A stretch of 64,000 nt of DNA from Varibaculum cambriense. GTDB lineage: Bacteria; Actinomycetota; Actinomycetes; Actinomycetales; Actinomycetaceae. The notes beneath the pieces are model-generated. The model did not search any database and was not told the origin of the DNA. It saw only the letters and a program-made list of their open reading frames with translations. Positions within the stretch are counted from its first letter, which is position 1. Every line of letters begins with the position of its first letter. The DNA lies in assembly GCF_002848005.1 (NCBI RefSeq), contig NZ_PKHX01000003.1, positions 122,317 to 186,316 on the forward strand, read 5' to 3'. The translations under genes were made by a program, and so were the position numbers. This document shows positions 35,128 to 48,351 of the stretch, in pieces.

Positions 35128-36984
35128 ATGGATTTATCGGCTAGTTACTTGCGCCAACCCCGCTCGGCGCGCCAAACTGAAACCATGGGTAAAAAGCCTT
35201 TCGGACATGCTAATTCTTTTGCGACCTCTCGCGCGGGATTAACTGCCCTGGCAATCATCATCGGAGCGATAGTAGGGCTGGTGGCAGTAGGTTTTTATTA
35301 CCTAATAGCAGGTTGGAGTTACCTGGTCACCGGTTATACCGATTACCCTGTCCACGCAGGCGCCCCCCACGGATTCCTCGGGTTAGCACCGGCGTTTATC
35401 ATTGCGGTTCCCGTGCTTTCTGCCCTGCTATATGGGCCGGTAGTGGAATATTTCACCCCCGGCAGCCGCGGACATGCTGTCCCGGAAGTAATGTTCGCCG
35501 TGCGCCGCAAAGGCGGGAGGATTCCTGGGCGCAACGCCCTGGTGAAACTTTTTGCCGCTTCTCTGACCTTGGGAGGAGGGGGAAATGCGGGCAGAGAAGG
35601 CCCGATTGTGATGATTGGTGCCGCGATTTCTTCTTGGGTAGGAACCCGCCTGGGATTAAGTAAACAACGGCTGATGTTCCTGTGTGCTTGCGGAGCTGCT
35701 GCCGGGATTGCCGCTACCTTTAATGCTCCCCTGGCTGGGGCTTGTTTCGCGCTCGAAGTAATACTCGGCACCCTCAGCGCCGAGGACTTTGTCTTCATCG
35801 TGTTTGCCTCGGTATCTGCCTCCCTGGTTTCCCAACAGTTTCTTCCTGACCGTGCCAGCGTGCCCCTCAGCCAATCTTTAGATCTGTTTTCTCAGAGCGA
35901 TTACCTGCTAGTGGCAGTGGCGGCTTTGGTAGCGACCCTGGTGGGAATCGGGTTTTCTAAACTTATCTACCTGGTTTGGGATGGAATCGACCTGGTTTAT
36001 CACTGGAATGCTTGGTTTCGCCCGGTTGCTGGTTCCCTGCTGCTGGGAGTATTTCTCTACTTTTTTCCTCTTCTGTATGGCACCGGGGAAAGCGTACAGT
36101 TGCGGGTACTCTCCGGCGATTTTCCAGTCTGGATGATTCTAGCGTTACTTTTAGGACGCGCTGTGAGTGCCGCTTTCACTATTTCTATGGGGGGAGCCGG
36201 CGGAGTCTTCGGTCCCACCTTATTTGTAGGCGCTTGTGCGGGGATGGCGGTGGGGCAGCTAATTCAGCCTTGGTCGGCCTCTTCGACCGCGATTTATGGA
36301 GTAATCGGGATGGGGGCGGCTTTCGCGGCGGCCTCTCGTGCGCCCCTAACCGCGGTTTTCATCATTATCGAGATGACCAGGCAGTATTCTCTGATTCTCC
36401 CGATGATGCTGGCGGTAGCGATTGCCACCGGGATTTCCCTATTTATGACCCGGTCGACTATTTATACCCAAAAACTACACCGGCGCGGTGATCGACTGTC
36501 AGACCCGGTCTCGGCTACTCTATTGGGAACCAGCACGGCAGCAGATTTAATGCATCAGCCCCCGCAAGTTTTAAGTCAAGATATCACCCTCGCTCAGGCC
36601 GAAAATGCCCTGGAAACTTGCGGTGAGAACTCTTTGGCGGTAGTCGATTCTCAGGGAGAATTCCAAGGCTCCGTGAGCGCCCTGCTGCTCGGCCAAGAAA
36701 TCGACAAACGCGGCGCAGATACGCCCTTGACGAAGATCCCTTTGTCCGCAGCATTCTGCACCCCCAAAGAGCTCCCTAGTCAGATTCTCAAGGAGCTGGC
36801 AGAGTCCTCACTTTCAAACCTGCCGGTGATAGGTCGCTCCCAAGAAGTCTTGGGTTATGTGCGAGGACGCGACCTGATTGTCAAACTGTATCGTCAGCAA
36901 ACCCGCGCGCTTAACCAGCGCGATCTAGGCGATTCTCTGGGTAAACGCATTCGCAAACGCTGGAAACAGCACCGCCACCGCTAA
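35128..36984 (+). CDS. ClC-family chloride channel/antiporter with CBS domains
   Basis: 618 aa. About ten membrane helices carry the ClC selectivity-filter motifs: GREGP at residues 155-159 with the gating glutamate, and GGVFGPTLFVGA near 370. The usual first motif GSGIP is replaced by GSRGHAVPE (about 112-120). The last 140 residues are a pair of CBS domains, which normally bind adenine nucleotides. No proton glutamate assignment was attempted, so channel versus antiporter is open. The ATG at 35128 gives a short overlap-free 40-bp gap to dxs; an ATG at 35185 (MGKKPFGHANS) is a credible alternative. Followed by the paired hairpins. Confidence 0.88.
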   Translation: MDLSASYLRQPRSARQTETMGKKPFGHANSFATSRAGLTALAIIIGAIVGLVAVGFYYLIAGWSYLVTGYTDYPVHAGAPHGFLGLAPAFIIAVPVLSALLYGPVVEYFTPGSRGHAVPEVMFAVRRKGGRIPGRNALVKLFAASLTLGGGGNAGREGPIVMIGAAISSWVGTRLGLSKQRLMFLCACGAAAGIAATFNAPLAGACFALEVILGTLSAEDFVFIVFASVSASLVSQQFLPDRASVPLSQSLDLFSQSDYLLVAVAALVATLVGIGFSKLIYLVWDGIDLVYHWNAWFRPVAGSLLLGVFLYFFPLLYGTGESVQLRVLSGDFPVWMILALLLGRAVSAAFTISMGGAGGVFGPTLFVGACAGMAVGQLIQPWSASSTAIYGVIGMGAAFAAASRAPLTAVFIIIEMTRQYSLILPMMLAVAIATGISLFMTRSTIYTQKLHRRGDRLSDPVSATLLGTSTAADLMHQPPQVLSQDITLAQAENALETCGENSLAVVDSQGEFQGSVSALLLGQEIDKRGADTPLTKIPLSAAFCTPKELPSQILKELAESSLSNLPVIGRSQEVLGYVRGRDLIVKLYRQQTRALNQRDLGDSLGKRIRKRWKQHRHR

Positions 36985-37022
36985 CGAAGTAACTCTCAGA
37001 AATACGGCGTCAAACGAAAATC

Positions 37023-37105
37023 CGGGGCAGCAAAAGATGCGAGAGGGGGCTTGAGCCGAGCGAAGCAAGGCTCACCGGGGTCCCCCGAGCGCTTTTGCTG
37101 CCCCG
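37023..37105. repeat. Structured element copy 1 (long nested hairpin)
   Basis: The outer 14-bp perfect stem is CGGGGCAGCAAAAG / CTTTTGCTGCCCCG. Inside are a conserved asymmetric internal loop (ATGCGAGA / GAGCG), a GGGGG/CCCCC stem, a TGAGCC/GGCTCA stem and an 11-nt loop GAGCGAAGCAA. The 65-nt core is repeated in copy 2. It lies between the convergent clc and acnA genes. Confidence 0.8.
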
Positions 37106-37183
37106 AATACTATGCGAGCAACCTGGATTTTCTAGCGATTTGCATATTATTCGTTTTGATGAAATCCGCTATAGCAGCAAAAT

Positions 37184-37272
37184 TCTGGGCACGGTAAAAG
37201 ATGCGAGAGGGGGCTTGATTCGAGCGAAGCAAGAATCACCGGGGTCCCCCGAGCGCTTTTACCGTGCCCAGA
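37184..37272. repeat. Structured element copy 2 (long nested hairpin)
   Basis: The outer 17-bp perfect stem is TCTGGGCACGGTAAAAG / CTTTTACCGTGCCCAGA. The 65-nt core (37196-37260) differs from copy 1 at four positions, which form two compensatory base-pair changes: TGAGCC/GGCTCA becomes TGATTC/GAATCA. All internal loops are identical to copy 1. Same orientation, 164 nt from copy 1. Confidence 0.8.
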
Positions 37273-37293
37273 GCATTAAACTCGTGCGATTAA

Positions 37294-39996
37294 CTAGGCA
37301 ACTAGGTTGCGCAGTACGTACTGCAGGATGCCACCGTGGCGGTAGTACTGAGCTTCACCGGGGGTGTCGATCCGCACGTCAGCGTCGAACTCTACGGTGG
37401 AGCCATCCGTCTTGGTCGCGGTCACCTTCATAACCTGCGGAGTTATCCCCTCATTAAGCTGGGTAATCCCGTTAATATCGAAGGTTTCAGTCCCGTCCAG
37501 ACCGAGAGAATCGGCGCTTTCGCCCTCGGGGAACTGCAGCGGGAGAATCCCCATCCCGATCAGGTTGGAGCGGTGAATACGTTCGAAAGACCGAGCGATA
37601 ACCGCTTTCACCCCCAGCAGCAAAGTTCCTTTAGCGGCCCAGTCACGCGAGGATCCGGTTCCGTATTCTTTACCACCAAGCACCACCAGGGGTACGCCGG
37701 CCTGGGCGTAGGAAACCGAAGCATCGTAAACCGGCACTACCGGAGCATCCGCTTTGGTGAAGTCCTTGGTGAAACCGCCCTCAACGTTGTCAAGTAGCTG
37801 GTTACGGATGCGGATGTTAGCGAAGGTGCCGCGCATCATCACTTCGTGGTTACCGCGCCGCGAACCGTAGGAGTTGAAGTTGCGCCGTTCCACTCCGTGG
37901 GAGCTTAGGTATTGACCTGCCGGGGTCTTGGCGGCAAACGCACCTGCGGGCGAAATATGGTCGGTAGTTACCGAATCGCCCAGTTTCAGCAGCACCCGGG
38001 CACCGGAAATATCTTTCACCGGGTTCGGGGTTTCCGGCATTCCTTCAAAGAAGGGTGCCCGGCGCACATAGGTGGATCCGTCGTCCCACGCGAAAGTGGA
38101 CGAATCGGGAACTTGCAAAGACTGCCAGCGGTGATCGCCTTCGAATACGCTCTGGTAATCCTGCAGATACATATCGCGGTCAATAGCTTTTCCGATTACT
38201 TTTTCTACTTCTTCGGCAGCTGGCCAAATATCGCGCAGATAGACGGGATTCCCGCGGTTATCTGTACCCAGCGCCTCGGTTTCAAAATCAAAATCCATCG
38301 TCCCAGCTAGTGCGTAGGAAATTACCAGCGGCGGGGATGCTAGATAGTTCATTTTTACATCCGGGTTAATCCGCCCCTCAAAGTTGCGGTTACCAGACAG
38401 CACCGACACCACGGTCAGATCTGCGTCCTCTACCGTATTGTGTACTTCCTCGGGCAGCGGGCCGGAGTTACCGATACAGGTGGTGCAGCCATAACCGACA
38501 ATATCGAAGCCCAGCTGTGACAGATAGGGCATCAGACCAGCTTTTTCGTAGTAGTCTCGCACCACTTGGGAGCCAGGCGCCAGTGAGGTTTTCACCCAGG
38601 GCTTGGGCTTTAGTCCCTTTTCAGTGGCATTCTTGGCCAGCAAACCAGCCGCCATCATCACCGAGGGGTTAGAAGTGTTAGTGCAAGAAGTAATGGAGGC
38701 GATCACCACGTCGCCATGATCCATTAATACTTCTTCCCCACCAGATAGTTTCACCTGGGTGGGGCGGGTAGGACGCATCAGTTTCGGATCGATGGTCTTA
38801 TCGCCGGCAACATAGTCAGGCAGGATCTTCTTGAAGGAATCTTTGGCCATTGCCAGCTCGATGCGGTCTTGCGGACGCTTCGGTCCGGCAATCGAAGGCA
38901 CTACGGTGGACAGATCCAGTTCCAAATATTCGCTGTAACGTGCCTCGTGAGCGGGGTCATGCCACAGTCCTTGCCGCTTGGCGTATTCCCGCACGAGGGC
39001 GCAGGCGTCTTCGCTGCGTCCGGTCAGGTGCAGGTAGTCAATGGTGACGTCATCGATCGGGAAGATGGCGGCGGTCGAGCCAAACTCGGGCGACATATTG
39101 CCGATAGTGGCGCGGTTGGCCAGAGGTACTGCTCCCACGCCCTCGCCATAGAATTCTACAAATTTGCCGACTACTCCGTGGTCACGCAGCATTTGGGTGA
39201 TGGTGAGTACCACATCGGTGGCGGTAGCTCCGGGAGCGATTTCGCCGGTCAGCTTGAAGCCCACTACCCGCGGAATCAGCATCGATACCGGCTGACCGAG
39301 CATAGCCGCTTCGGCCTCGATTCCGCCGACACCCCAGCCGAGGACGCCTAGGCCGTTAACCATGGTGGTGTGGGAGTCGGTTCCTACCAAAGTGTCGGGG
39401 TAAGCCAGCGCGCCGTCCTCGTCCTTATCGGCGAAAACTACCCGCGCCAGGTATTCGATATTTACCTGGTGGACAATGCCGGTCCCCGGGGGTACTACCC
39501 GGAAGTTTTCGAAGGCGCCCTGTCCCCAGCGTAGGAACTGGTAGCGTTCCTGGTTGCGCTGGTACTCGATATCCATATTCTTTTCCACGGCATCTTTAGA
39601 GCCAAACACATCGATTTGCACCGAGTGATCAATGACCATTTCCGCTGGTACCTGCGGGTTAATCAGGTCCGGGTTTTTGCCCAGGTTCACCACCGCGTCG
39701 CGCATAGTCGCCAGGTCAACGATGCAGGGAACGCCGGTGAAATCTTGCATCAAGACCCGCGCCGGGCTGTACTGGATTTCCTGGCTGGGTGCCGCTTCGG
39801 GATCCCAGTTGGCAATCTGGGTGATCTGCTCCTTGGTGATATTTTCCCCGTCCTCGTTACGCAGCAGGTTTTCTGCCAGGATTTTCAAGGAATAGGGTAA
39901 TTTTTCGGTGCCGGGCACCGCTTTTAGATCATAGATTTTATAGCTCTTATCACCGACACTTAGCTGGGTCGCGGCGCCAAAGCTGTTCAAACTCAT
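37294..39996 (-). CDS. acnA: Aconitate hydratase
   Basis: 900 aa TCA-cycle enzyme interconverting citrate and isocitrate through a [4Fe-4S] cluster. The cluster ligands are in [10 protein letters not shown] and [34 protein letters not shown] and the C-terminal [17 protein letters not shown] swivel-domain signature are also present. Full length for AcnA. ATG with a GGGAGG ribosome site. It ends next to the paired hairpins. A 14-bp palindrome lies 33 bp upstream of the start. Confidence 0.97.
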
Positions 39997-48317: not shown

Positions 48318-48351
48318 GTGACTATTACTGACAGAGATCAGTAATAGTCAC
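48318..48351 (-). terminator. Intrinsic terminator of the 51-aa peptide gene
   Basis: Perfect 13-bp inverted repeat GTGACTATTACTG / CAGTAATAGTCAC with an 8-nt loop; on the minus strand it is followed by TTCTTTTT. It is about 67 nt beyond the peptide stop. Confidence 0.8.

Follow-up and report, generated by a model that had tools for sequence, protein, structure and literature searches.

What are the two nested hairpins that lie between a ClC-type channel gene and acnA in Varibaculum cambriense, and what keeps their unpaired bases alike while their stems change? We examined these hairpins within a 64,000-nt stretch of the genome (the window) and compared them with related sequences elsewhere. 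A first-pass annotation had proposed three options: a regulatory or processed RNA, a pair of bidirectional terminators, or a REP-like mobile repeat.

Results

Twin hairpins in the clc-acnA gap

The two copies lie on the same strand, 164 nt apart (Table 1). Their 65-nt cores (37032-37096 and 37196-37260) are identical at 61 of 65 positions (94%). Read from the sequence, the four differences form two exchanged pairs, TGAGCC/GGCTCA in one copy and TGATTC/GAATCA in the other. The description of two same-orientation nested hairpins with two compensatory pairs was thus confirmed. The first-pass annotation had also described the outer arms as fully different yet perfectly paired, and a scan for perfect stems agreed: the arms of the two copies are mutually unrelated in sequence, and they form 14 and 17 perfect pairs. 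In the whole window, perfect stems that reach 14 pairs and enclose a spacer of at most 180 nt number only three, and two of them are these outer arms. The third, a 14-pair stem at 48318-48351, has a short spacer and is probably an ordinary terminator.

Both copies are predicted to fold stably on either strand. Folding z-scores were -6.3 (copy 1) and -8.5 (copy 2) on the plus strand and -5.0 and -6.4 on the minus strand, and none of 200 shuffles was equally stable in any case. The channel gene stop codon ends 38 nt before copy 1, and the acnA stop codon lies 21 nt past copy 2. Scanning the window with a covariance model built from 51 copies returned both hairpins and a weak opposite-strand match on copy 1 (24.7 bits).

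Table 1. Positions of the twin hairpins, their parts and the neighbouring genes within the window
Feature	Position	Strand	Basis
Copy 1 of repeat, apical form A, arm to arm	37023..37105	+	Model R1 match 37017-37111, 108.8 bits; perfect arms
Copy 1 5' outer arm, AAAAG at end	37023..37036	+	14 perfect pairs with 37092-37105
Copy 1 3' outer arm, CTTTT at start	37092..37105	+	Perfect-stem scan
Copy 1 conserved core including internal loop	37037..37091	+	Sequence, fold, pair counts on 51 copies
Copy 1 core stem GGGGG/CCCCC	37045-37049 with 37082-37086	+	Sequence, fold, pair counts
Copy 1 apical stem TGAGCC/GGCTCA	37052-37057 with 37069-37074	+	Sequence, fold, pair counts
Copy 1 apical loop	37058-37068	+	Sequence, fold, pair counts
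Copy 1 bulge CCGGGGT	37075-37081	+	Sequence, fold, pair counts
Copy 2 of repeat, apical form A	37184..37272	+	Model R1 match 37181-37275, 109 bits; perfect arms
Copy 2 5' outer arm	37184..37200	+	17 perfect pairs with 37256-37272
Copy 2 3' outer arm	37256..37272	+	17 perfect pairs with 37184-37200
Copy 2 conserved core	37201..37255	+	Sequence, fold
Copy 2 apical stem TGATTC/GAATCA	37216-37221 with 37233-37238	+	Sequence, fold
Upstream gene, ClC-type chloride channel-like protein	35128..36984	+	ORF; best NCBIfam match NF002505, 3.4e-68, below the model's curated cut-off
Convergent gene acnA (aconitate hydratase)	37294..39996	-	ORF; TIGR01341 above cut-off

A dispersed repeat family in Varibaculum

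The twin hairpins are members of a dispersed, non-coding repeat family, here found in Varibaculum only. A gapped core pattern run over a collection of 84,980 genomes matched 14 stretches, which came from Varibaculum vaginae, two V. cambriense genomes and one record labelled Tissierella. By DNA comparison (E up to 10), each of those four genomes had 23-33 matches when fragments were counted. The 51-copy covariance model matched all six Varibaculum genomes, with 18-25 matches each (E up to 1), and a search across the taxonomic family (E up to 0.01) matched seven of 213 genomes: the six Varibaculum genomes and one weak case. We rejected that seventh match (G121, E = 1.8e-4) as a copy because it is a simple terminator-like hairpin. 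A model of the type C variant described below, searched against 396 genomes sampled from the order, matched a single genome, G002 itself. The family is genus-wide, which excludes a purely local duplication. The genome labelled Tissierella sp. Marseille-P2918 (L003, L006, L013; FQLW01000005, FQLW01000006) carries the family; the genome set groups it with Varibaculum, and its label looks wrong.

The model search in the genus gave 130 matches. We left out four, namely the reverse-strand match at one location (G006 1843142), two weak matches beside other copies (G003 1179079, E 0.71; G005 613828, 29 bits) and a copy resembling a second hairpin family, F2 (G004:C23:118370). Adding the two window copies gave 128 instances. 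Ten of these could not be placed on the G006 chromosome, eight were excluded from the count of G-U and A-C mismatches, and five had no parsed core in the comparison of orthologs and paralogs.

Searches of known families did not name the element. Rfam 15 gave no match at gathering score in the window, and only one tRNA at that score in seven loci with whole or partial type C copies. Sub-threshold matches to eukaryotic snoRNA models, miRNA models and RtT RNA were rejected as identities, none being at gathering score. Plasmid or phage cargo was also rejected: the best matches (E 0.2 and 0.9) were judged to be chance, and a short-form pattern matched none of the viral contigs. We found no description of the family in Rfam or in the titles and abstract openings of the Varibaculum papers listed.

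A common base with exchangeable arms and apical forms

The first-pass annotation had called for a covariance model and a search of related genomes, and this yielded many copies with covarying stems, mostly at gene ends. Across the 51 copies, 31 pairs are paired in 90.4% of cells. Twenty pairs changed on both sides, in 188 cells, compared with a mean of 52.7 for shuffled versions (0 of 500 as high), which do not preserve relatedness, and at most 45 for slid versions, which do. The outer arms differ widely across the family and are complementary in most copies. The base of the core also covaries, with AUGC or AUAC opposite GAGCGC or GAGUGC. AAAAG and CTTTT tracts symmetrically flank the inner GC-rich hairpin.

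Matches to the model span 87-154 nt and carry one of three apical forms on one common base: A (with a GAGCGAAGCAA loop), B (a short hairpin) or C (about 110 nt between half-motifs). The predicted fold of form C is a three-way junction in which a CCC/CCU strand pairs with the GGGG left bulged in A and B. Pair 97-130 of this form is kept in 22 of 22 copies and is invariant; hence there is no covariation there. Form C appears to be the fuller form, with A and B reduced from it. The loops and stem reported as invariant are so in the two window copies, but in the wider family the GAGCGAAGCAA loop is replaced and the internal loop is altered in some copies.

Type B copies have outer arms in common, whereas the arms of type A differ from site to site. 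We considered inverted target duplication as the source of the arms and dropped it, because the type B copies share theirs and orthologs keep related arms. Arm mismatches gave no sign of a favoured RNA strand (45 G-U versus 31 A-C, p = 0.14). Within the core, one pair is G-U in ten copies and A-C in two, and another is T-G in 109 of 120.

Conservation of loops

The unpaired bases of the core appear to be more conserved than the flanks, and the arms less. Identity over 42 ortholog pairs from 12 sites was 95.3% in loops, 91.8% in core pairs, 77.2% in arms and 81.6% in flanks, counting aligned columns only and restricted to 55-nt cores in equal orientation with a flank identity of at least 0.55. 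These values carry a bias towards loop conservation, as copies found by the model favour conserved ones and pairs with poorly matching flanks were dropped; the pairs are also non-independent, some at the twin locus compare different slots, and at site 829-831 kb the apical hairpins of one pair differ but are equally long. In 65 of 75 comparisons a core lay closer on average to its orthologs than to the paralogs (mean distance 4.7 versus 9.6), a contrast inflated by the mixture of forms A and B among the paralogs. By the nearest single core, the ortholog was closer in 30, the paralog in 25 and neither in 20 of the 75. Loops drifting freely beside persistent stems, the outcome that had been named as fatal to a structured element, were not seen among these copies, a sample in which the model search favours well-kept ones.

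Form exchange and turning in place

Placing 118 of the 128 instances on G006 defined 45 sites, 25 of them shared by at least two genomes. Long and short apical forms both occur at 13 of these 25 shared sites, and at site 1500383 form A (G005) and form C (G004) sit within the same arm. Both orientations are likewise present at 13 of the 25. We sorted the two-orientation sites by a flank test, in which the scores of unrelated 90-nt flanks stay within 22 for 95% of draws and within 39 for 99%. The element had turned between unmoved flanks at four sites, the flank had turned too at two, and the flanks at the remaining seven fit either turning or separate insertion.

At site 143158, both flanks of the turned element keep their own sides (left 85-102, right 75-99), the type C domain is nearly identical in both orientations, and the asymmetric arms turned along with the element. 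The same holds for the flanks at site 443987, between G005 and both G004 and G006 (left 78-86, right 127-143), where the core variant GATACTCGAGG/CCGAGTGC is common to both orientations, and at clc-acnA, between G004 and G005 (130 and 114). At site 439425 the left flank kept its side (99-159) and the right flank is too diverged (14-30); here the variant GATGTGAG/GAACAC is common to both orientations. Because the arms are palindromic at clc-acnA, 439425 and 443987, turning of the core only and of the whole element look the same there. At sites 1721434 and 616539 the adjoining flank turned with the element, indicating that a longer stretch moved. Site 1721434 was accordingly rejected as a clear case of turning in place, its upstream flank having turned too.

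In the six genomes and the window, the clc-acnA gap holds one or two copies, of forms A and C, one of them inverted. A lone left-arm relic is retained in the gap of G002. The slot that holds the TGATTC core variant differs between species, which suggests exchange between the twins.

Position at gene ends

With gene context taken from a simple home-made gene caller, the 128 instances comprised 78 in convergent gaps, 30 in co-directional gaps, 8 in divergent gaps and 12 too close to a locus edge; none lay inside a called gene. Convergent gaps thus account for 78, and divergent gaps for 8, of the 116 copies with readable context. On the near-complete G006 chromosome, 15 of 24 copies are convergent, as against 102 of the 690 gaps that measure 120 nt or more (p = 1e-7, or 4e-6 when gap length is taken into account). 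The bias persisted with one vote per site (25 of 45, p = 6e-8), and an earlier count from regex-found copies with a looser gene threshold gave 13 of 22. As in intrinsic terminators, the copies lie mostly at gene 3' ends: the nearest is a median of 33 nt away and within 60 nt in 69 of 108 instances. There was no strand preference, either between convergent genes (42 versus 36) or elsewhere (14 sense versus 16 antisense).

Varibaculum is generally rich in long gene-end hairpins. In G006, 942 gaps hold 148 perfect stems of at least 14 pairs, 68 of them convergent; there were two such stems in 1.85 Mb of coding sequence and none in shuffled gaps.

Other hairpin families in the same genomes

F2 is a second nested-hairpin family, with 30 copies in G006, 17 of them convergent (an example is L126 8213-8340). 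Its outer arms are perfect and variable, its asymmetric loops (TTTTATCCGAG..GGTGGGC and GGGC.GGAGGAAAAA) are conserved, and its inner stem is often AAGAATTCGGAAAACG; its G-rich strand has several GGG runs. Broken halves of the repeat directly abut F2 copies in G006 (about 1810938, 1923462, 83071, 1812810 and 650351), as if F2 had inserted at the core or recombined with it. A third family, F3, is a nested hairpin with TAAATCCGTGAAAATGCCAGAGCATTTTCCGGATTTC and has three copies by exact motif (G006 about 1864995, 2030821 and 1810728). F3 occurs where other genomes carry the repeat described here.

Discussion

Relation to known repeats

The family falls among structured interspersed repeats such as ERIC, bcr1 and BOX and is not a GTAG-type REP. 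Its many intergenic copies with a common fold (18-25 per genome) are of the ERIC, bcr1 and BOX kind. As far as the available text of PMC2267715 describes them, ERIC and bcr1 likewise have tens of non-coding intergenic copies of about 100-170 nt that form one long stem-loop. The Varibaculum repeats, from another genus, differ in that their arms vary by site while the loops stay, their apical module is exchanged, and elements are turned at shared sites. The BOX, RUP and SPRITE repeats of Streptococcus pneumoniae share a modular build with a variable inner module in a constant frame, a hairpin and a bias to convergent gaps, and SPRITE is described as terminator-like (available portion of PMC3049150). 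BOX places tandem boxB units between boxA and boxC (PMC3049150), whereas the Varibaculum base carries one of three apical forms and its arms are not constant. GTAG-type REPs and REPINs are also palindromic, intergenic and mostly in convergent or co-directional gaps, but their features as given in the accessible part of PMC3733652 (20-40 bp, a GTAG end, RAYT transposases) do not hold for our family: the GTAG end is absent, by eye, from the 51-copy consensus, and the model matches far exceed 20-40 bp. With respect to the constant terminal inverted repeats of MITEs, the arms are inverted repeats common to type B and site-specific in type A. The family stands apart in that, on a base that stays fixed, the arms, the apical module and the orientation can each be exchanged.

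A probable two-way element at gene ends

Among the options of the first-pass annotation, the best fit appears to be a palindromic repeat that is dispersed and probably serves as a terminator in both directions. The regulatory RNA option fits poorly in its strand-specific form, because orientation is random and differs between species. Our preferred reading, on which we are evenly poised, is that the repeat ends transcription or caps transcript ends between convergent genes, whichever way round it lies, with arms and orientation rewritten by template switching. We favour a two-way terminator or cap because the role seems indifferent to strand and is sited at gene ends. The hairpin would stop read-through or protect 3' ends on both strands; either strand would yield a hairpin and a short U-tract, sealed by the outer stem. 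Bidirectional intrinsic terminators similarly sit at gene 3' ends with an A-tract, a GC hairpin and a T-tract on both strands. The Varibaculum tract, in contrast, is only four bases long and sealed in a longer stem, and a plain terminator does not need the conserved asymmetric loops. A simple terminator scan of 36900-37400 (a GC hairpin with 5 or more T among the next 8 bases) found one weak minus-strand match, at 37252-37239, which is no excess over shuffles, whose average is 0.6. Broken halves of the element occur in the genome, so single copies are dispensable.

Template switching by the polymerase between the two arms during replication would produce both the matched arm changes and the turning of elements, and it explains them without a recombinase tolerant of any arm sequence. 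In the available text of PMC8604942 and PMC8794818, switching between inverted repeats is described as homogenising the arms and inverting the spacer, and such products resemble ours in their multi-base paired arm changes and spacer inversions. The reported inversions are 2-5 bp in yeast genes (PMC8604942), compared with about 55-150 nt in the Varibaculum repeats. Inversion of the spacer between unmoved flanks is what we observe at the four sites; the mechanism behind it would be template switching. The argument that conserved unpaired bases beside changing paired bases indicate selection on structure stands for the loops, which exceed flanks and arms in conservation, and weakens for the arms: paired arm changes need not show RNA selection, given the arm homogenisation reported (PMC8604942). 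Template switching leaves the kept asymmetric loops unexplained, and selection is the simplest cause. The core may be kept because something needs its internal loops.

Alternative explanations

A non-autonomous mobile element of MITE or REPIN kind, moved by some transposase, would account for the dispersed copies and for sites that differ between species; gene-end siting would then be harmless insertion and core likeness recent copying. The shared arms of type B are as expected of recent spread, and pneumococcal interspersed repeats are likewise over-represented between convergent genes (available portion of PMC3049150). We nevertheless consider this explanation unlikely. Type A copies are old, with orthologous sites recurring across the genus, and the 15 listed comparisons with G006 gave no clean empty site with a target duplication, most gaps differing by several elements. 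Among the two enzyme families searched, a Y1 (RAYT-type) transposase (PF01797) was found in none of the six genomes, compared with 5 of 14 controls, and a reverse transcriptase in only three of the six; mobilisation by either is unsupported.

The strand-neutral, convergent position and the symmetry of G-U and A-C mismatches in the arms would also suit a DNA site that acts on supercoiling between convergent genes, or a site for another structure-binding protein, with no role as RNA. A gyrase or supercoiling role has been proposed for the BIMEs of E. coli. Such a site is improbable here, the G-U excess at one core pair and the prevalent T-G at another being better suited to pairing in a one-strand RNA. 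We rate as very improbable that the repeats are a neutral by-product, in which template switching keeps inverted repeats perfect, nothing is gained, and core likeness reflects young age or conversion. Arm homogenisation and spacer inversion do follow from switching (PMC8604942; PMC8794818, as far as available), the broken halves are consistent with neutrality, and three copies at 443987 have a 5' internal loop that now complements the 3' side (GATACTCGAGG with CCGAGTGC), as switching would yield. The same process would, however, also convert the asymmetric loops to perfectly paired stem; most copies retain them. Loop conservation above that of the flanks, with its finding bias, also speaks against neutrality, and the average closeness of cores to their orthologs, though inflated by the mixed forms, argues against frequent conversion.

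Implications

A broader proposal, which we advance tentatively, is that the repeats belong to a class of elements, present throughout the genus, that are recognised by their loops and agnostic to stem sequence: the signal would lie in the internal loops, any pairing arms would serve, and routine template switching would repair the arms and flip the element. If this is true, turning over in place is how a device that works both ways at gene ends evolves. F2 follows the same design, and the arrangement may then reflect how gene boundaries are more generally built in some bacteria. Paired stem changes are usually taken as proof of RNA selection. This family offers many natural sites at which paired arm changes and turned elements can be followed across species, and with it the shares of mutation, through template switching, and of selection, on the loops, could be told apart. 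For Varibaculum, a human-associated genus, it would also supply described gene-end structures that are missing from Rfam-based annotation.
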